Below, piece by piece: positions 17,220-24,833 of a stretch of 25,000 bases of DNA (its first letter is position 1; each line of letters starts with the position of its first letter). The position numbers and the translations under genes were made by a program. Under the pieces are notes generated by a model that did not search any database, had not been told where the DNA came from, and saw only the letters and a program-made list of their open reading frames with translations. This stretch comes from a virus. Location: IMG/VR virus record IMGVR_UViG_3300042691_045951, positions 1 through 25,000 of that record. One strand, 5' to 3'.

Positions 17220-17411
17220 TTATTCAGATACGGTTTGATAAGCAAAGATTAGAGTTAAGCAAAGGGACATGAAGGTAAACCCAATTTCATTGAGTACTCC
17301 AGCAAATTGAATATGATTTTGCACGGTACCTTGCATCATTCCGAGAGTAATGAAAATGAAGAAGATAGTAGCAATTAAATTTCCGGTTCGTTTAAGTGTT
17401 TTGTTTTGCAT
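17220..17411 (-). CDS. Small membrane protein with two membrane segments
   Basis: This 63-residue protein has two hydrophobic stretches (about 11-28, LIATIFFIFITLGMMQ, and 38-58, GVLNEIGFTFMSLCLTLIFAY) joined by a short polar loop. No family recognised. It is the first gene of a minus-strand unit: its ATG is 7 bases downstream of the third 29-bp near-palindrome, back to back with the plus-strand decarboxylase-Rieske operon. Confidence 0.6.
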   Translation of the reverse strand: MQNKTLKRTGNLIATIFFIFITLGMMQGTVQNHIQFAGVLNEIGFTFMSLCLTLIFAYQTVSE

Positions 17412-17418
17412 ATATGGT

Positions 17419-17447
17419 GTATTAAATTTATAGTATAAAAATAATAC
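17419..17447 (-). promoter_or_regulatory. 29-bp near-palindrome upstream of a start codon (copy 3)
   Basis: Exact third copy of the near-palindrome at 141-169, 7 bases upstream of the ATG at 17411. That it survives where the neighbouring terminator does not argues that the palindrome has its own function. Confidence 0.5.
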
Positions 17448-17501
17448 TTATTTTCTAAATAAAAAAATTTTCGGTCACTTTTTTTTCAAAAGTTATTAAC
17501 A
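17419..17501. repeat. Diverged third copy of the boundary repeat
   Basis: The 29-bp near-palindrome (17419-17447) is exact, and the AAAGTTATTAACA element (17489-17501) is kept. The terminator hairpin between them is replaced by unrelated sequence. The distance between the two elements is 41 bases here and 31 in the two other copies, about one helical turn more. No gene ends here, so no terminator is needed. Confidence 0.75.
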
Positions 17502-17532
17502 TTTTTATGTTAACTAGTTTTCCGCGGGAAAA
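17496..17532. promoter_or_regulatory. Two inverted repeats in the divergent promoter region
   Basis: TTAACAT and ATGTTAA (17496-17513) surround TTTT. Five bases on, TTTTCC and GGAAAA (17518-17532) surround GCG in TTTTCCGCGGGAAAA. Both lie within 70 bases upstream of the plus-strand decarboxylase start, so one may be an operator for that operon. The G/C-rich centre stands out in this A/T-rich gap. Confidence 0.4.
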
Positions 17533-17565
17533 AAGGATAAATAAAACAAAAAATCTTATTGCCTT

Positions 17566-17982
17566 ATGTTTAACCCAATTCATCAGCACTTATTAGTAAA
17601 GTGCTCAATCAAAAAAACCATTAGAGAAGTTGAGGTACTTAATCAATGGTTTAGAGATCTAGTTGCAAAAGTTGGAATGAAAGTCGTTGCCGGACCTACT
17701 TCTGTAATGGTAGATGAACCTGGAAACGAAGGATTGACCGGAACTGTCACACTGGCAACATCCCACGCATCCATTCATATCTGGGACGAAGCGGAAAATC
17801 CGTTTCTTCAATTTGACATCTATTCATGCAAATGTTATGAGACTTCTGTTGTACTAGAACATATAAATAATGCATTCGAAATCGATGAGTATGAATATAT
17901 GCTCGTAGATAGAAATGACAATTTAACTGTGGTCGATCAAAAGGCCGGTAAGTACGAACAAAATTTAATAACAAATGAATAA
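17566..17982 (+). CDS. speD: S-adenosylmethionine decarboxylase-like pyruvoyl enzyme
   Basis: This 138-residue protein has the bacterial SpeD pattern: QHLLVKCSI at the start, TGTVTLATSHASIHIWDE (58-75) and LQFDIYSCKCY (81-91). Ser66 is the expected self-cleavage residue that becomes the pyruvoyl group, His71 is the processing histidine (5 residues after the serine, as in Thermotoga S63/H68), and Cys88 is the proton donor. The residue before the serine is Thr65, where classical enzymes have Glu. The family makes decarboxylated SAM for spermidine synthesis, but SpeD homologues have also become ornithine or arginine decarboxylases, so the substrate is uncertain. The next gene overlaps it by 8 bases (ATGAATAA), implying coupled translation. 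speD is a known auxiliary gene in T4-like cyanophages. Confidence 0.82.
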   Translation: MFNPIHQHLLVKCSIKKTIREVEVLNQWFRDLVAKVGMKVVAGPTSVMVDEPGNEGLTGTVTLATSHASIHIWDEAENPFLQFDIYSCKCYETSVVLEHINNAFEIDEYEYMLVDRNDNLTVVDQKAGKYEQNLITNE

Positions 17983-19084
17983 CATCGAAAAAACTTCAAT
18001 GAATTTGCCCTACCCAAAGATCAATATAGATCGTTGGTTTTCTCAGGAAGTACATGAAGAGGAATTGAAACACCTATTCAATGCTCCTAACTTACTTAAA
18101 TACTCAGGTCATGAACTTATAGTTCCTAATAATAATGATTACTGGGTTCCGCCTCAATTAGACAACCGTTGGATCGTAGTTAACAAAGACGGTAAAACTG
18201 AATTGGTTTCTAATGTATGTCTTCATAGACAAGCTCCTATTGTTGAAGGTAAAGGAAATTCAGCATTCTTTACATGTAAAGTTCATTGTTGGAATTACAA
18301 TAACAAAGGTAAGTTACGTTCTGCTCCTTTATTTAATGATGTTGATGGAGAATTAGAAAAGAAAGAACTTTACAATTGGAATGGACTTTTGCTTCAAGGA
18401 GGAGTTCCAGGATTCACATTAAAGGACGCAGGAGTTGACGATATCGTGGATTTCTCTAAATATCATTATGCATTCACTGACACTTTAGAACAAGATTACA
18501 ACTGGAAATCTTTCTCTGAAATCTATCTAGAAAACTATCATATCTTTGCAATCCATCCAGGATTTAACGGATTCGTTGATTGTAATAATCAAAGTTGGTT
18601 TATGCATGAAAGCGGTTCAGTACAAAGAGTTGGTATGAAAGAAACTCTAGATACTATTGCCGGATCTAAATGTTTTGAAGATTACCAAAAACTTCTTCTA
18701 AAAGCGTTTGAAGGTAGAATGCCTAGATTAGGTGCAGTTTGGATCTATTTATATCCGAACATTATGATTGATTGGTATCCTGGAGTTATTGTAGTATCGA
18801 CTATTCATCCAGTATCTCCTCAAAAATGCGTTAATTTAGTAGATTACTTCTTTGAGACTGAGATTTACGAAAAATGCCCTGAATTCTTTGAGGCTTCAAA
18901 AGTTATGTATGACGAAGTTGCAGTAGAAGATTCTTTTGCTTCCGGATATCAAGATAAAGGAAGACGAGCTCTTTATTTGAATGGAGAAACTCTTTCAGGT
19001 CCAATGGAACTTAATCAAGAAATTGGAGTTAAAGGTCTTTACGAATGGATTCGTAAAACTCATCCAAGACAATCTGAACAATAA
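17975..19084 (+). CDS. Rieske non-heme iron oxygenase, alpha-subunit type
   Basis: This 369-residue protein looks complete and active. The N-terminal Rieske domain has C82-x-H84 (SNVCLHRQAP) and C101-x2-H104 (FTCKVHCWNY), binding the [2Fe-2S] cluster, with 16 residues between. The catalytic domain has the mononuclear iron ligands H189 and H194 (ENYHIFAIHPG) and probably D319 (EVAVEDSFASGYQ), the usual two-His-one-carboxylate set. Such enzymes hydroxylate, demethylate or dealkylate small molecules and need a reductase, which is not encoded here and would come from the host. The nearest relatives probably act on aromatic, choline- or carnitine-like compounds, but the substrate cannot be read. 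It is translationally coupled to the decarboxylase, so an amine-related pathway is a reasonable guess. A strong terminator follows the stop. Confidence 0.9.
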   Translation: MNNIEKTSMNLPYPKINIDRWFSQEVHEEELKHLFNAPNLLKYSGHELIVPNNNDYWVPPQLDNRWIVVNKDGKTELVSNVCLHRQAPIVEGKGNSAFFTCKVHCWNYNNKGKLRSAPLFNDVDGELEKKELYNWNGLLLQGGVPGFTLKDAGVDDIVDFSKYHYAFTDTLEQDYNWKSFSEIYLENYHIFAIHPGFNGFVDCNNQSWFMHESGSVQRVGMKETLDTIAGSKCFEDYQKLLLKAFEGRMPRLGAVWIYLYPNIMIDWYPGVIVVSTIHPVSPQKCVNLVDYFFETEIYEKCPEFFEASKVMYDEVAVEDSFASGYQDKGRRALYLNGETLSGPMELNQEIGVKGLYEWIRKTHPRQSEQ

Positions 19085-19103: not shown

Positions 19104-19129
19104 AAAAGGTCAGCGAATGCTGACCTTTT
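19104..19129. terminator. Bidirectional rho-independent terminator
   Basis: Perfect 11-base arms (AAAAGGTCAGC and GCTGACCTTTT) enclose GAAT. On the plus strand it follows the Rieske stop by 19 bases with T-rich sequence after it. On the minus strand it follows the RimK-RimB stop by 17 bases and ends in TTTTGTTG. It likely serves both converging units, more strongly the plus strand. Confidence 0.88.
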
Positions 19130-19145
19130 TTATTTTGATTTGATC

Positions 19146-20636
19146 TTAATCTTTTTTGAACTTAATACCTGCATGCTTTTGGCCTTTAGCTTCTCCGGCA
19201 GAGTATTCTCCGTCAAATGAGGTAGAAACGAAAGTTTTTGTCGGTGATACTGAACATCCGATCCTTTCCATGAATTTTCGGTTAACCAAGAACTTAGTAG
19301 ATTTGTCAGTTCTATCAACCAAAGATACGTGAACTCCTTTGTAATTTTTGCCAGCAAATTGAAGGTCTAATTCTATAATAGGTCTTTCATGAGTTTCATT
19401 ACCTACTTCAGCATTTGCATATCCGATAATTTTATTTTCGAATTTATTTCCACCTAACTCCCATTTTACCGTTTTATCTAAGACTTCCATTTTATCATAA
19501 GTCATTGAACAGGAAAGAGAACCATTACCTGTGTCAAATTTAGCAACTATATCGCCAATTCCTAATACATGAACAACTTCTCGGAATCCTACAATTTTTC
19601 TAGTGCGTATCCAGTTGGATTTGTCTTCTAAAAAGTCTAGGATATCGGCAACCACATCTATACCAGTTGCTTTCTTAAGACCTTGAGTTCCAGGAGAAGC
19701 ATTAACTTCTAGAACGTAATTTTTACCAGTCTTCTTATCAACTATAATATCAACTCCGCACCAATTACATCCAATAGCTTTTGCCGCATTAATAGCGATT
19801 TCTTCTTGTTCTTTTGATACCTTGGTTTTTTCGACGGTACCACCTAAAGAATAATTAGTTCTGAAGTCTTTCTTAACTCGATTCCTTCTCATGAAACCTA
19901 GAAGAACTGCATCAGTATCTTCCGGCTTTGGCGCATTGAATTTTCTAGAAAGTACATGAATTCTTAAATCATATTCAGAATCGATTTTCTCTTGAATAAG
20001 AACTTCTAATTTAGAATCCAGTTTCCAAAGAGTCTGAAGAACGGATTTCAAAGATGCTAAAGATTCAACTATAGAAACTCCAATTCCTTGAGATCCGGAA
20101 AGTAATTTAAGAACTACAGGAAATTTTCCACCGGTTTGTTTAACTGCTGAATCGATATTTTCTTCATTTTCAATGATAGCCATTTTAGGAACAGGAATAC
20201 CTGCATCTTGAAGAATTTTAGAAGTAACATACTTGTTTTCGCAAGCTAGAATTGAATCTAAAGTGTTAACAACAAAGAATCCAGCATCTTCTAATTTGGT
20301 TACTGCATCTCTTGTAAATGTAGATCTAACAACTCCTCTACGGGTCATAATTGCAGTATCATCTACTGAAATTCCCATAGGTTTTTTGTTATTTTTGTCA
20401 TATATAAGGAAGTCATTTTTCATGGTTTTATCTTCCTCAACTACACATGAATTGATATCGACGATACGATATTTGATTCCTCTTTTATCACATTCCTGGG
20501 CAACTGCTGGAACCGTGTAGGATTCTTCACTCATATTAGAAAGAAGAATCAATTTGATTTTGGGTTTCTTGGCTTTGGCTTCTTTAGCTTCATTCAAAGC
20601 ATTGAATTCGTCAAAGTAGAGAATTTGTCTTTTCAT
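19146..20636 (-). CDS. RimK-type ATP-grasp ligase fused to a RimB-type retropepsin-like domain
   Basis: This 496-residue fusion has three parts. Residues 1-16 (MKRQILYFDEFNALNE before Ala17) are the CTS-like peptide. About 28-345 is a RimK ATP-grasp ligase: KLLSGSQGIGVSIVES, the DLRIHVL strand, MRRNRVKKDFRTNYSLGGTV, and the metal-binding EVNASPGTQGLKKATGID. About 348-485 is a RimB-like domain (often annotated as ATP-dependent zinc protease): RKIVGFREVVHVLGIG, the aspartic protease motif KFDTGNGS, a RPIIELDL strand, and SLVDRTDKSTKFLVNRKFM. In bacteria RimK adds glutamates to ribosomal protein S6, and RimB is a separate aspartic protease acting in the same system. A writer and possible eraser in one chain is notable. 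Its start overlaps the zinc-ribbon gene by 26 bases. Confidence 0.85.
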   Translation of the reverse strand: MKRQILYFDEFNALNEAKEAKAKKPKIKLILLSNMSEESYTVPAVAQECDKRGIKYRIVDINSCVVEEDKTMKNDFLIYDKNNKKPMGISVDDTAIMTRRGVVRSTFTRDAVTKLEDAGFFVVNTLDSILACENKYVTSKILQDAGIPVPKMAIIENEENIDSAVKQTGGKFPVVLKLLSGSQGIGVSIVESLASLKSVLQTLWKLDSKLEVLIQEKIDSEYDLRIHVLSRKFNAPKPEDTDAVLLGFMRRNRVKKDFRTNYSLGGTVEKTKVSKEQEEIAINAAKAIGCNWCGVDIIVDKKTGKNYVLEVNASPGTQGLKKATGIDVVADILDFLEDKSNWIRTRKIVGFREVVHVLGIGDIVAKFDTGNGSLSCSMTYDKMEVLDKTVKWELGGNKFENKIIGYANAEVGNETHERPIIELDLQFAGKNYKGVHVSLVDRTDKSTKFLVNRKFMERIGCSVSPTKTFVSTSFDGEYSAGEAKGQKHAGIKFKKD

Positions 20637-21114
20637 TTTTTCTGATATATTTTAGAAACTTTCGTTGGTTTTCTTTAAGCAATTTTTTGTAATGGTCGGT
20701 AAAATTAACCATGGATTCTAGGACTGATTGACTTACACTTTTAGAATCCTTTACATAATATGTATAACACTTCTTACACGTGAAATTGTCTACTTTGAAA
20801 TTATCTATCCTAGATTTTATCGGTCCTTTGCAATATGCGCAATTCCAATCTAATATCTTATAGATATCCTTAACGTGTGAATAAGTGGATATCTCTCGTG
20901 TCTCTGGGTTGATGTAAGGTCGATATAAATGAGATACCTTTATCCTAGAATCTTCGATCTTAAACAAACACTGAATGAACCTGTCATCCGTCGAATTTTT
21001 GGATATGACAGGATTTTTCAGTAAAACTCTTTGATATCTTGGTTCTAGATTTTTTAGAAGAATACCAAAGCGAGTTCTTGCTTTACCTCGATTTTGTCGT
21101 ATAATTTTAACCAT
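20611..21114 (-). CDS. Zinc-ribbon protein of unknown function
   Basis: This 167-residue, basic protein starts at MVKIIRQNRGKART, overlapping the upstream stop by 8 bases (ATGGTTAA). A start 8 codons earlier is possible but overlaps more. C92, C95, C113 and C116 (NCAYCKGP and FTCKKCYT) form a four-cysteine zinc ribbon. The basic N-terminus (about 1-35) and C-terminal helix (KKLLKENQRKFLKYIRKNEK) suggest nucleic-acid binding. It could be a transcription or translation factor; I recognise no family. Its neighbours are the very charged 1044-residue protein and the RimK fusion. Confidence 0.6.
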   Translation of the reverse strand: MVKIIRQNRGKARTRFGILLKNLEPRYQRVLLKNPVISKNSTDDRFIQCLFKIEDSRIKVSHLYRPYINPETREISTYSHVKDIYKILDWNCAYCKGPIKSRIDNFKVDNFTCKKCYTYYVKDSKSVSQSVLESMVNFTDHYKKLLKENQRKFLKYIRKNEKTNSLL

Positions 21115-24100
21115 GTATAGGTAGAAATTCGTTATCAAGATCCCTCATTTGACCTTCAATTATAGCTATTATAGCTCCAATGGTCCATAAGTCAGTATCG
21201 GTTGCTTCATTCTGTTTAGCTTTTGCATCTTCTACTGCTTTTTTACCAGCTTCAAGGTTCTTTTCTATTGCAGATATAGCTTTTTGAATTGATTCTTTCT
21301 TATCTTCCGGAGCTTCTGCTAATTGAGATTTTTTATCACCTAAAGCTTTTTCGATACCTTTTAATTTATCTTCGGCAACTCTAATTTGATAGGCTTTCTT
21401 TTTAGCTTCAATTTCTTCAGGAGTATCTCCTTTTTGAGGTTGTTCTTCCGTCTTAACTTCTTTCTTAGAAGGTTCAGAAACCGAGGAACCTTTAAGTTCT
21501 TCTTTTTGTTTCTGGTTTATTTTCTGATTAAGCTCGAATTCTTTTTTAGAGTCCTTCTTCAATTGCTCTTTCTGATCTGCTATTTTATCAGCCTGTTCAG
21601 GCGTAGCATTCTTATCTGCATCTTCATCTGAAGCAGCCTCGTCGGCTTTTAGTTGCTGAGTTTTTTCTTTAGATTCACCTTCGGCATCTTTTGCTTTACT
21701 TTCCAATTCTTTCTTTTGATCAGGATCTACCGTCATAGCGGCTAATTGCTGATTAAATTTAATTCTATTTTGGAGTCTCAATCCGGCAACGAATTTCTTA
21801 AGCATACCATTGTTACCAACTATTTCGTCGGTTTCTGCCATTAAAGCATTGATTTCTTCATTTCTAGCTGTTAATTCGCCACTAAGTCGATTTTCTATAT
21901 CGCTTATTTCTGCTTTAATTTTATCAATCTCCTCTTTTTTATTCTTTTCTTCGTCTGCATCAGCATCCTCTTCTTCCTTTTTCTTCTTCGCTTCTTCTTC
22001 AGCTTTAAGTTTATCTTCTTCCGATTTAAGATCTACACCAGTAGCTTTTTTAACTGATTCTTGCTCTCTCATTTTCTTAACTCGGAGCTGGTCTATTTGA
22101 TTCTTTAATGCAGCCTTTTCTTTAGGATCTTCTGTATTTTTCATTTCCTCCTCTAGACCTGCGATTTCATCGTTAATCTTTTGGATCTCTTTGAAAGATG
22201 CATCCGCCTGAGCCATTTTCTTGGCTTCTTCTTCTTTCTCTTTTGATAATTTTACATCTCCTTCTAATTTGGCTTTTGCACCAGTTAATTTAGCTTTTTG
22301 CTGTTTAAGAGGCATCTCTTTTGCCGTATATGCAGCCATCTCTTTATTAAATTTCTCAGTTGCGGCTCCGTCTTTGGTAGCATCTCCTGTAGTTGCAGGT
22401 TTTTCGGGTTTTGATGTAGCCAAATTGGCTAATTCTTGATCTACCTTATCGATTTCGTCTTGAAGTTCTTCGATCTTCTGCTCTTTAGATTTTGTATCAT
22501 CTCCAGTTATATCGTCTGCAGTAGTTTCTTCTCCTGTCTTATCATCGGTGGTTTCTTCCCCTGACTTATCATCAGTAGTTTCTTCTCCCGACTTATCATC
22601 TGATGGAGGTGTAGTTTCTTCTCCTGATTTATCGTCTTTAGTTTCGCCTGACTTATCGTCTGATGGAGGAGTAGTTTCTTCTCCCGACTTATCATCTTTG
22701 GTTTCTCCTGACTTATCGTCTTTGTCTTCTTTGTCGTCTTCTGGTTCTTCGGCAGGTGCATTAGCAGCAACATCAACATCAGAAGATTTACCGCTCTTTA
22801 ATGCGGCAATTTGATCTTCTAGCTTTTTAATAGTATTTCCTATAGAAGCTTTTGAATCTCCTTCTGCAGTTTTTTCTCTTTCTTGTGCAGCGGCTAATTC
22901 AGCTTCAAGTTCTTTGATCTTTAATTCCGTAGCTTCCGCTTGAAGTTTTTCTTTTTCAGTTTCTTCTAGAATCAAAGAATAGGATTCGAGTATTGATTTT
23001 CTCAATCTTAATGATGCTCTTAATCTTTCCGAAATTAGTGATCTTTTATATTCTATATCGTCTAGTTCTTCGTCTAATCGATCCAATGTATTACCAAAGT
23101 TAGGACATATAGCATCAAAATCGAAAGATTCGTTTTTCTCTAGTTTCTTCTTAATCTCTGCCTGTTTGTCGTATATAGATTGAAGCTTATCTTCATATTC
23201 CTTTTTCATGTCAGATATAGCATCATACATATCCATATCATGGTTATCTTGTTGATCCGCATCCCAATCAGGATCTCTTTCATCATCGAATTTCTTACGA
23301 ATCTCGTCTTCTTTATCTGATTGCTCTTGGTTTATAGATTCTTCTTCAGCATCAAGCTTTTCTAATTCAGCTTTTAATGCTTCTTCATCATCACCGCCTT
23401 CATCTTCCTTTGGCTCTTCAGCAGGTTCTTCCTTCGGTTCTTCCTTCGGCTCTTCAGCAGGTTCTTCCTTTGGCTCCTCTTTAGGTTCTTCAGCAGGTTC
23501 TTCCTTCGGTTCTTCCTTTGGCTCCTCTTTAGGTTCTTCTGCTGGTTTTTCTTCAGCTTCTTTATCTCCTTCAGGACCTAAGTCTTTTATTTCTTGTCTT
23601 TTATCTACCCATTGTGAATAGAAATCGGCGGCGGTCTTTAATTGTGCAGCAACTGCCAAATCAGTTTTAGCACCTTTATCGCCTTTAAGTTCTTTGATTT
23701 GACCGCTAAGTTCTCTATTCTCAGCTCTAATAGTTTTAATCTCTACATTAAGTTCTCGTCTTTTTTGTAAAGGTTGTCCTTGCTTTTGGTCTTTAAGACC
23801 TTTTACCTTTTCTCTATTAGATTTCTTTTGTTCTCTTAGCTTCTCAATCTGAGCATCGATTTTCTTGTTTTTAGCAGCTTCTTTTTCCTTGTCACTAGGT
23901 CCGCCTTTAGCATCCGGTTTGCCTTCAGGTTTTTTAGGTCCATCAGGTTTTTTAGGTCCATCTTTCTTCTTTGCAGCAGGCTTCTTCTTCATAGCCGGCT
24001 TTTGTGGTCTGGCAGGTTTTCTCTTTGCTACTTCTAAAAGTCTAGTGTAATTTTCGTTTTCTGATAGATCAAATTCAGAAAAAGCTTCTATAACTTCTTC

Positions 24101-24241
24101 TGCACTCATTTGATCGCTAAATTCAAACTCATATTCACTAGAAACGCTGTCTATAAATTTGGATATCAAATTCCTTTCCTCCATGAGCTTATACTCCTGT
24201 AGCATTTGATACTCCAATAACAATTTATTTAGGTTTTCCAT
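21107..24241 (-). CDS. Very large charged coiled-coil and low-complexity protein
   Basis: This 1044-residue protein starts at MENLNKLLLEYQML. ATG 24241 lies 11 bases after the preceding stop; an ATG 26 codons earlier would overlap that gene by 68 bases. The composition is extreme in Lys, Glu, Asp, Ala and Gln. Order: a helical N-terminus (1-70), a Pro/Lys-rich stretch (about 75-115), long coiled coils, an acidic EEPKEEPAEEP repeat (about 230-280), more coiled coil, a DDKSGEETT repeat (about 500-570), then coiled coils to a compact C-terminus with a hydrophobic patch (LWTIGAIIAIIEGQM). No enzyme motif and no cysteine-rich region is visible. Such a protein could be a scaffold or core protein of the prohead, an internal head protein or a cytoskeleton-like filament. 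No family recognised. It stands just upstream of the zinc-ribbon and ligase genes. Confidence 0.65.
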   Translation of the reverse strand: MENLNKLLLEYQMLQEYKLMEERNLISKFIDSVSSEYEFEFSDQMSAEEVIEAFSEFDLSENENYTRLLEVAKRKPARPQKPAMKKKPAAKKKDGPKKPDGPKKPEGKPDAKGGPSDKEKEAAKNKKIDAQIEKLREQKKSNREKVKGLKDQKQGQPLQKRRELNVEIKTIRAENRELSGQIKELKGDKGAKTDLAVAAQLKTAADFYSQWVDKRQEIKDLGPEGDKEAEEKPAEEPKEEPKEEPKEEPAEEPKEEPKEEPAEEPKEEPKEEPAEEPKEDEGGDDEEALKAELEKLDAEEESINQEQSDKEDEIRKKFDDERDPDWDADQQDNHDMDMYDAISDMKKEYEDKLQSIYDKQAEIKKKLEKNESFDFDAICPNFGNTLDRLDEELDDIEYKRSLISERLRASLRLRKSILESYSLILEETEKEKLQAEATELKIKELEAELAAAQEREKTAEGDSKASIGNTIKKLEDQIAALKSGKSSDVDVAANAPAEEPEDDKEDKDDKSGETKDDKSGEETTPPSDDKSGETKDDKSGEETTPPSDDKSGEETTDDKSGEETTDDKTGEETTADDITGDDTKSKEQKIEELQDEIDKVDQELANLATSKPEKPATTGDATKDGAATEKFNKEMAAYTAKEMPLKQQKAKLTGAKAKLEGDVKLSKEKEEEAKKMAQADASFKEIQKINDEIAGLEEEMKNTEDPKEKAALKNQIDQLRVKKMREQESVKKATGVDLKSEEDKLKAEEEAKKKKEEEDADADEEKNKKEEIDKIKAEISDIENRLSGELTARNEEINALMAETDEIVGNNGMLKKFVAGLRLQNRIKFNQQLAAMTVDPDQKKELESKAKDAEGESKEKTQQLKADEAASDEDADKNATPEQADKIADQKEQLKKDSKKEFELNQKINQKQKEELKGSSVSEPSKKEVKTEEQPQKGDTPEEIEAKKKAYQIRVAEDKLKGIEKALGDKKSQLAEAPEDKKESIQKAISAIEKNLEAGKKAVEDAKAKQNEATDTDLWTIGAIIAIIEGQMRDLDNEFLPIHG
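22519..22740. repeat. In-frame tandem repeats coding for DDKSGEETT-type units
   Basis: About 220 bases within the 1044-residue protein gene carry about ten imperfect units (mostly 24-39 bases) that encode DDKSGEETTPPS, DDKSGETK and DDKTGEETTA. They are coding low complexity, not a CRISPR array: the units are contiguous and keep frame. Confidence 0.85.
23403..23545. repeat. In-frame tandem repeats coding for EEPKEEPAEEP units
   Basis: About 140 bases encode alternating EEPK and EEPA units, a Glu/Pro/Lys low-complexity linker in the 1044-residue protein. Units of 12 bases differ at wobble positions, so the protein sequence rather than the DNA seems to be kept. Confidence 0.85.
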
Positions 24242-24251
24242 TAAAGGTTTA

Positions 24252-24833
24252 TTATTTTTCTGCTTTATCTCCACCTCCACCAGGTGCCATTCCAGGCCAT
24301 TCAATCTTTTGAATCTCACCTAATGCAGCAAGTTTCTTTTTCAATGCTGCTAGATCTTTATAGCCGGCATTTAATTTATTCATTTCGGCTGCAAATTCAG
24401 CATCTACTGCTTTTTTAGCTTTCTTCTTTTTGAAGAGATATTGAATCCATTTACCAACACCGATAGCCGCACCGGCAACTCCGGCAGCCACAGCAGCACC
24501 ACCGGCAATAACAAGTCCAGTGGCAGATTCGGTATCTTTTTCAGGATTGTAAGGTACTTGACCTTCACCGGCCTCAATGATTATTTCGAAATCTTCATGA
24601 TCTCTTTCATTGAATCCAAAAGATTCATATAGGTGGTCAAGAATTGGGAATGGGTTTAATTCGTAAGATTCGCACATATGTCCAACTCCAGTAGAACTTA
24701 ATAGTAAAAGGAATCTGATAGCATCATCAAATTCTGCACGTTTAGGTACGTAGTTGTAGGTATTACACAATACCACATATTCATTAAGTTCGTCTCTGAG
24801 TTTAATATATTCAGAAGGCTCTATTAGTCTCAT
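24252..24833 (-). CDS. Protein with a central Gly/Ala-rich membrane-type segment
   Basis: This 193-residue protein has an N-terminal helical part (1-95), a Gly/Ala-rich hydrophobic stretch (GLVIAGGAAVAAGVAGAAIGVGKWI, about 106-130), a very basic patch (LFKKKKAKKA) and a coiled-coil-like C-terminus ending in GMAPGGGGDKAEK. The stretch could cross a membrane or pack in a virion shell. No family recognised. The next gene (1044 residues) starts 11 bases after the stop. GCATATAACTAG and a GATATATA box precede its start. Confidence 0.6.
   Translation of the reverse strand: MRLIEPSEYIKLRDELNEYVVLCNTYNYVPKRAEFDDAIRFLLLLSSTGVGHMCESYELNPFPILDHLYESFGFNERDHEDFEIIIEAGEGQVPYNPEKDTESATGLVIAGGAAVAAGVAGAAIGVGKWIQYLFKKKKAKKAVDAEFAAEMNKLNAGYKDLAALKKKLAALGEIQKIEWPGMAPGGGGDKAEK

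Follow-up and report, generated by a model that had tools for sequence, protein, structure and literature searches.

What do the two plus-strand genes in a phage stretch otherwise read from the minus strand do, and do their products work together? The window, i.e. the whole stretch of DNA analysed here, was taken from an IMG/VR virus record, spans 25 kb and represents a fragment of a large freshwater phage of the jumbo T4-like type, with T4-like terminase, sheath, clamp loader and exonuclease. Its closest named kin are unannotated jumbo phages, the Tenacibaculum phages PTm1 and PTm5, Sphingomonas phage PAU, the Prevotella Lak phages and Flavobacterium phage MaF61, and because of these relatives the host is likely to be a member of the Bacteroidota. 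The two genes encode a SpeD-like decarboxylase and a Rieske oxygenase (Table 1) and have a codon-position composition similar to that of the adjacent phage genes. The initial annotation had described them as the sole plus-strand genes of the window, overlapping by 8 bases, preceded by inverted repeats and closed by a terminator, and this description holds. The other plus-strand ORFs of at least 60 aa all lie within or across longer minus-strand genes, which leaves the pair as the only genes on that strand, and the overlap follows exactly from the ORF coordinates. The terminator was found directly after the Rieske gene and its core sequence occurs a single time within the window; the inverted repeats are present at 17400-17570, though they are A+T-rich and imperfect. 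Five promoters were predicted compared to 8.0 in shuffled sequences, i.e. there is no excess, and a divergent promoter region finds no support other than these repeats. Because of the gene overlap, translational coupling of speD and the Rieske gene is likely.

Table 1. Features of the slot in the window, and positions of the coupled membrane-protein gene in related loci
Feature	Position	Strand	Remarks
Small membrane-protein gene, left border of slot	17220..17411	-	
Divergent intergenic region	17412..17565		Conserved in part with L084
SpeD-like pyruvoyl decarboxylase, 138 aa, putative ornithine/arginine decarboxylase	17566..17982	+	S66, H71, C88 kept; T65, D74 replace E, P
speD stop / Rieske start overlap	17975..17982	+	8 bases
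Rieske non-haem iron oxygenase, 369 aa, putative putrescine 2-hydroxylase (AlcE family)	17975..19084	+	
Intrinsic terminator	19104..19129	+	AAAAGGTCAGC GAAT GCTGACCTTTT; 11-pair stem and T tail
RimK-like ATP-grasp gene, right border of slot	19146..20636	-	
Coupled small membrane protein, L071	9494-9802		
Small membrane protein coupled to the ornithine decarboxylase, L167	6501-6821		
Coupled small membrane protein, L068	10210-10566		
Coupled small membrane protein, L100	4335-4673		

The comparison set consisted of 54 related viral loci retrieved via the terminase; scans of viral contigs with a single window protein (SpeD or Rieske) yielded no relatives, which were found by profile-based scans. 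The comparison revealed a slot with changing content near the clamp loader, bounded by the RimK-like gene and the small membrane-protein gene. In L084, whose clamp loader and RimK are 91% and 84% identical to those of the window, the slot contains SpeD without Rieske at about 105 bases from RimK. The slots of L066, L071 and L094 hold SpeD and other small genes and are likewise free of Rieske, those of L006 and L168 contain neither gene, and that of L167 carries a PLP-type ornithine decarboxylase and a membrane-protein gene. The SpeD genes of L084 and L066 are immediately followed by a terminator of the window kind (GGTCAG stem), so the Rieske gene of the window sits between SpeD and the terminator of the slot. 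Elsewhere the Rieske gene is located between an HNH-like and a gp32-like gene (L065, L075, L077 and L080) or close to an endolysin cluster (L067 and L069), and in relatives that have both genes on one record it lies about 18-45 kb from SpeD. A conserved coupled pair was therefore not borne out: since the Rieske gene of the relatives lies elsewhere or is missing from their slot, the coupled pair is confined to the window phage within the phages searched, and the direct coupling is a rearrangement found only there. A recent move of the Rieske gene from the gp32-side locus within the lineage was considered and is unlikely, because the window protein is 44-45% identical to the gp32-side copies, as against up to 84-91% between other window proteins and their nearest relatives. 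The two genes do co-occur, as all five relatives above 120 kb that have the Rieske gene also have SpeD (G011, G017, G038, G046 and G389), with G017, G038 and G389 being near relatives of one another. SpeD occurs without Rieske in G014 and is much the commoner of the two genes among phages.

At the right border of the slot, the RimK-like protein has an additional C-terminal region of about 150 residues. The 1070-aa gene at 21107-24319 on the minus strand, which adjoins the RimK gene cluster, is without a PHROG match, and Yersinia phage homologs of the RimK-like protein have been annotated as structural proteins.

The Rieske protein has the hallmarks of an active enzyme. It matches the Pfam families Ring_hydroxyl_A (3.2e-22) and Rieske (1e-11), both beyond the curated cut-offs, and the iron ligands that the initial annotation had called intact are indeed in place: the [2Fe-2S] ligands C82-x-H84 and C101-x2-H104 and, for the mononuclear iron, H189, H194 and D319 all occur and do not vary across the relatives, and the bridging acid E186 is present as well. 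An AF2 model (pLDDT 89.7) predicts a Rieske and a catalytic domain, together a complete oxygenase subunit; a search of BFVD with this model gave only two matches, both weak and unnamed. The best fold match, and the nearest solved structure, is the carnitine monooxygenase CntA (Z 31.2 over 325 residues), an amine monooxygenase that shares the Glu bridge E186. However, the two proteins are about 18% identical in the structural alignment, CntA has N at position 266, and clustering with CntA-type proteins was not observed, the CntA-like L279 and L285 falling outside the Rieske clade. When the phage copy is set beside AlcE and its stand-alone homologue, no dedicated reductase gene is recognised adjoining it, which makes the proposed use of host electron transfer plausible.

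The phylogeny of the family suggests what the substrate may be. The phage, Alteromonas and betaproteobacterial proteins form one clade with AlcE (support 100/99 and 99/98 in two trees), separate from the carnitine, benzoate and other oxygenases (99-100/98-99). A 2016 study by Li et al. reportedly identified AlcE as a putrescine 2-hydroxylase of the Rieske type. The window group is the sister of Alteromonas (100/100) and forms a sister subfamily to AlcE that is not nested within it; the window protein sits on a long branch, and its sequence identity is about 32% with AlcE and about 40% with the copies of the betaproteobacteria. Phage Rieske, AlcE and the stand-alone betaproteobacterial homologue share the metal ligands as well as W208, Q217, Y268, R330 and E/D266, residues that are conserved in the clade and mostly not outside it. 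Position 266, which is D in the window protein and E in nearly all other members checked, is a candidate for binding the diamine ammonium. In contrast to AlcE, the phage enzyme is phage-borne and adjoins a decarboxylase instead of siderophore genes.

The bacterial members add to this. A profile of the phage members matched at least 564 bacterial stretches, best in Alteromonas and Betaproteobacteria, and the family gene is present in 278 of the 299 Burkholderiaceae genomes sampled. In many genomes a stand-alone copy adjoins xseB-ispA-dxs (e.g. L282:4932-6062), neighbours that offer no clue to the substrate. Two copies were found in 18 genomes, 15 of which also belong to the 18 that have an alcC-class IucA/IucC synthetase (Fisher 9e-20), and by inspection the second copy is the final gene of hydroxylase-MFS-acetyltransferase-IucA/IucC-reductase-Rieske operons, i.e. 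alcABCDE. According to two papers, 2-hydroxyputrescine is a betaproteobacterial polyamine and a component of alcaligin, and is produced in Bordetella bronchiseptica and Ralstonia solanacearum by putrescine hydroxylases (PMC10385936; PMC7857480). Distribution, operon and phylogeny agree with this hydroxylase being a Rieske protein, and we consider it fairly probable that the substrate hydroxylated by the window enzyme is putrescine or an amine very similar to it.

The alternative that has to be taken most seriously is that SpeD does feed putrescine while the Rieske enzyme has a different amine as its substrate, be it agmatine, cadaverine, spermidine or a quaternary amine of the host, the two sharing the slot by chance. 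The adjacency that is unique to the window, the large distance between the genes in other phages, the strong divergence of the subfamily common to the window and Alteromonas, and the existence of at least one further phage group with a Rieske gene and without SpeD would all fit such an arrangement. Yet the Rieske protein groups with AlcE and the betaproteobacterial copies, the pocket candidate E/D266 is common to the whole clade, and SpeD accompanies the Rieske gene in each of the five large relatives. On balance we regard this alternative as rather unlikely, though by no means negligible.

For the first enzyme of the pair, the claim of a SpeD-like decarboxylase could be upheld with respect to the intact catalytic residues and narrowed with respect to the substrate, which is probably ornithine or arginine rather than AdoMet. 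The protein matches Pfam AdoMet_dc (7.3e-16) beyond the curated cut-off, whereas on the AdoMet decarboxylase equivalog TIGR03330 it reaches 44.7 of the 75.65 bits required. The processing and catalytic residues S66, H71 and C88 are kept in all 86 aligned phage sequences. Two positions distinguish the phage clade from true AdoMet decarboxylases: the residue just ahead of the cleavage Ser, where T65 replaces Glu, and position 74 after HxW, where the conserved Pro has given way to D (82 of 86 sequences) or E (4 of 86). This Pro is conserved in true AdoMet decarboxylases and lost in the arginine-decarboxylase forms (PMC10407285); its loss, the mark of SpeDA, is found in the window protein and is not specific to arginine decarboxylase activity. 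Of the Gln/Thr/Phe/Tyr set diagnostic of SpeDC, the window protein has at most some: T65 and Y86 agree, V61 and I70 differ and Q82 and F83 occur, the column assignment being approximate. The SpeD homolog of pelagiphage HTVC201P is an assayed arginine decarboxylase, and five homologs of freshwater phages decarboxylate ornithine (PMC9992855). Phage homologs with these activities have the class 1b pyruvoyl fold in common with the window protein, as well as the retained Ser/His/Cys, the lost Pro and the Thr before the cleavage Ser (PMC9992855, PMC10407285). HTVC201P in particular shares T65 and D74, but its protein is about 34% identical, the C-terminus of the window protein is longer, and the latter has V61/I70 in place of Q/F; the genes to which it is coupled are different as well.

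The strongest functional hint comes from a single case, the slot of L167, where SpeD has been replaced. The gene at L167:6799-7908 on the minus strand encodes a canonical PLP-type ornithine decarboxylase of the AR fold, which matches 7odc at 4e-77, has matches of 2e-73 or better to the ornithine decarboxylases of mammals and trypanosomes, and contains the motifs NDGVY and TCDSLD. Its fold is unrelated to that of SpeD, yet it occupies the same slot, and it is followed by an overlapping gene for the same small membrane protein that is found 3' of SpeD in other phages. The membrane protein is about 105 aa long (102-118 aa), and in about 10 of the 74 loci its gene overlaps that of SpeD or lies directly against it. 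It lacks a match in PHROG and has none in Pfam above cut-off; it is possibly linked to polyamines. Because of the replacement in L167, ornithine appears to be the favoured substrate of SpeD, with arginine in second place. Judging from these comparisons, the SpeD-like protein most likely decarboxylates ornithine (or arginine) and not AdoMet, and there is a good chance that it feeds putrescine.

The SpeD-like protein might nevertheless be a true AdoMet decarboxylase that boosts spermidine synthesis of the host, with the Rieske gene as unrelated cargo. Its predicted fold is the same as that of the Thermotoga AdoMet decarboxylase (Z 14.3, 111-112 residues aligned), and some phage SpeDs are bona fide members of that class, one of them from a Bacteroidetes phage (PMC9992855). 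This explanation has to contend with the failed equivalog cut-off, with the substitutions at the two distinguishing positions and with the ornithine decarboxylase that takes the place of SpeD in L167. In addition, a search of 35 related phage records, the majority of which carry SpeD of the window type, gave no spermidine synthase (SpeE) that passed the family cut-off. Many Bacteroidota synthesize spermidine via the carboxyspermidine route, in which AdoMet decarboxylase is not used, and this also counts against it. Altogether, we consider a true AdoMet decarboxylase quite improbable.

The probable ornithine/arginine decarboxylase activity of SpeD and the placement of the Rieske protein in the AlcE/putrescine 2-hydroxylase family make it plausible that the two act consecutively. 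The balance of the evidence tips slightly towards the pair being a small polyamine module, inserted where the phage carries changing cargo, that converts ornithine via putrescine to 2-hydroxyputrescine. The SpeD-like proenzyme would cleave itself at S66 to generate the pyruvoyl group, and would then decarboxylate L-ornithine, or less likely L-arginine, thereby raising putrescine during infection. The Rieske oxygenase would subsequently hydroxylate carbon 2 of putrescine with electrons from redox partners of the host, yielding 2-hydroxyputrescine. What supports this scheme at the level of sequence is the intactness of the catalytic residues, the family placement, the slot exchange with ornithine decarboxylase and the co-occurrence in relatives, whereas both substrates, the electron donors and the benefit to the phage are what we infer from these. 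The earlier suggestion that the phage remakes an amine in its host is thus supported in its direction, a small amine being the likely common theme, and not in its reliance on a conserved pair.

The benefit may lie in charge neutralisation of the packaged DNA, in a polyamine that is beyond sensing or degradation by the host, or in DNA modification. A bolder and decidedly unlikely reading is that several phage groups divert ornithine or putrescine of the host into 2-hydroxyputrescine, a compound normally absent from a Bacteroidota host, which would then pack, protect or covalently decorate the phage DNA or evade the polyamine control of the host. That the polyamine product hypermodifies the phage DNA, as in PhiW-14, where host putrescine is attached to thymine and the host contains 2-hydroxyputrescine (PMC5977210), is highly improbable, as no modification gene was recognised beside the pair, even if a thymidylate-synthase-like gene was seen by eye in L067/L069. 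A search of 12 records for HMUDK_hel gave no matches, and the control was likewise silent.

Polyamine genes of phages were already known, and so were the putrescine hydroxylases of betaproteobacteria. A survey of virus polyamine enzymes makes no mention of Rieske, and in the literature searched we found no phage-encoded putrescine hydroxylase. What is new here is that phages carry putative members of the putrescine hydroxylase family, possibly as part of a route that yields a hydroxylated polyamine in two steps. If true, this would be the first sign of a putrescine hydroxylase carried by phages, and would imply that phages alter which polyamine is present, beyond raising polyamine levels. It would also make the role of 2-hydroxyputrescine, a taxonomic marker whose general function is unclear, testable in a phage system.

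In a second scan, the Rieske family, for which the present assignment would provide a candidate name, turned up in more than 20 additional phage contigs (L298-L322) outside the window group. Most other phage records with a Rieske gene lack SpeD, and an AdoMet_dc gene, of a different kind, was present in one of the 17 further contigs tested. Rieske matches labelled 'Acinetobacter phage MD-2021a' were rejected as phage relatives and used as outgroups only, since the contigs look bacterial; these CAKLQF/CAKLQH records carry benA, hcaR, antA and gabD and resemble a bacterial chromosome. Finally, IscU- and IscA-like iron-sulfur assembly genes were recognised by eye at L092:368-1130, with a SpeD gene of the phage about 3 kb further downstream.
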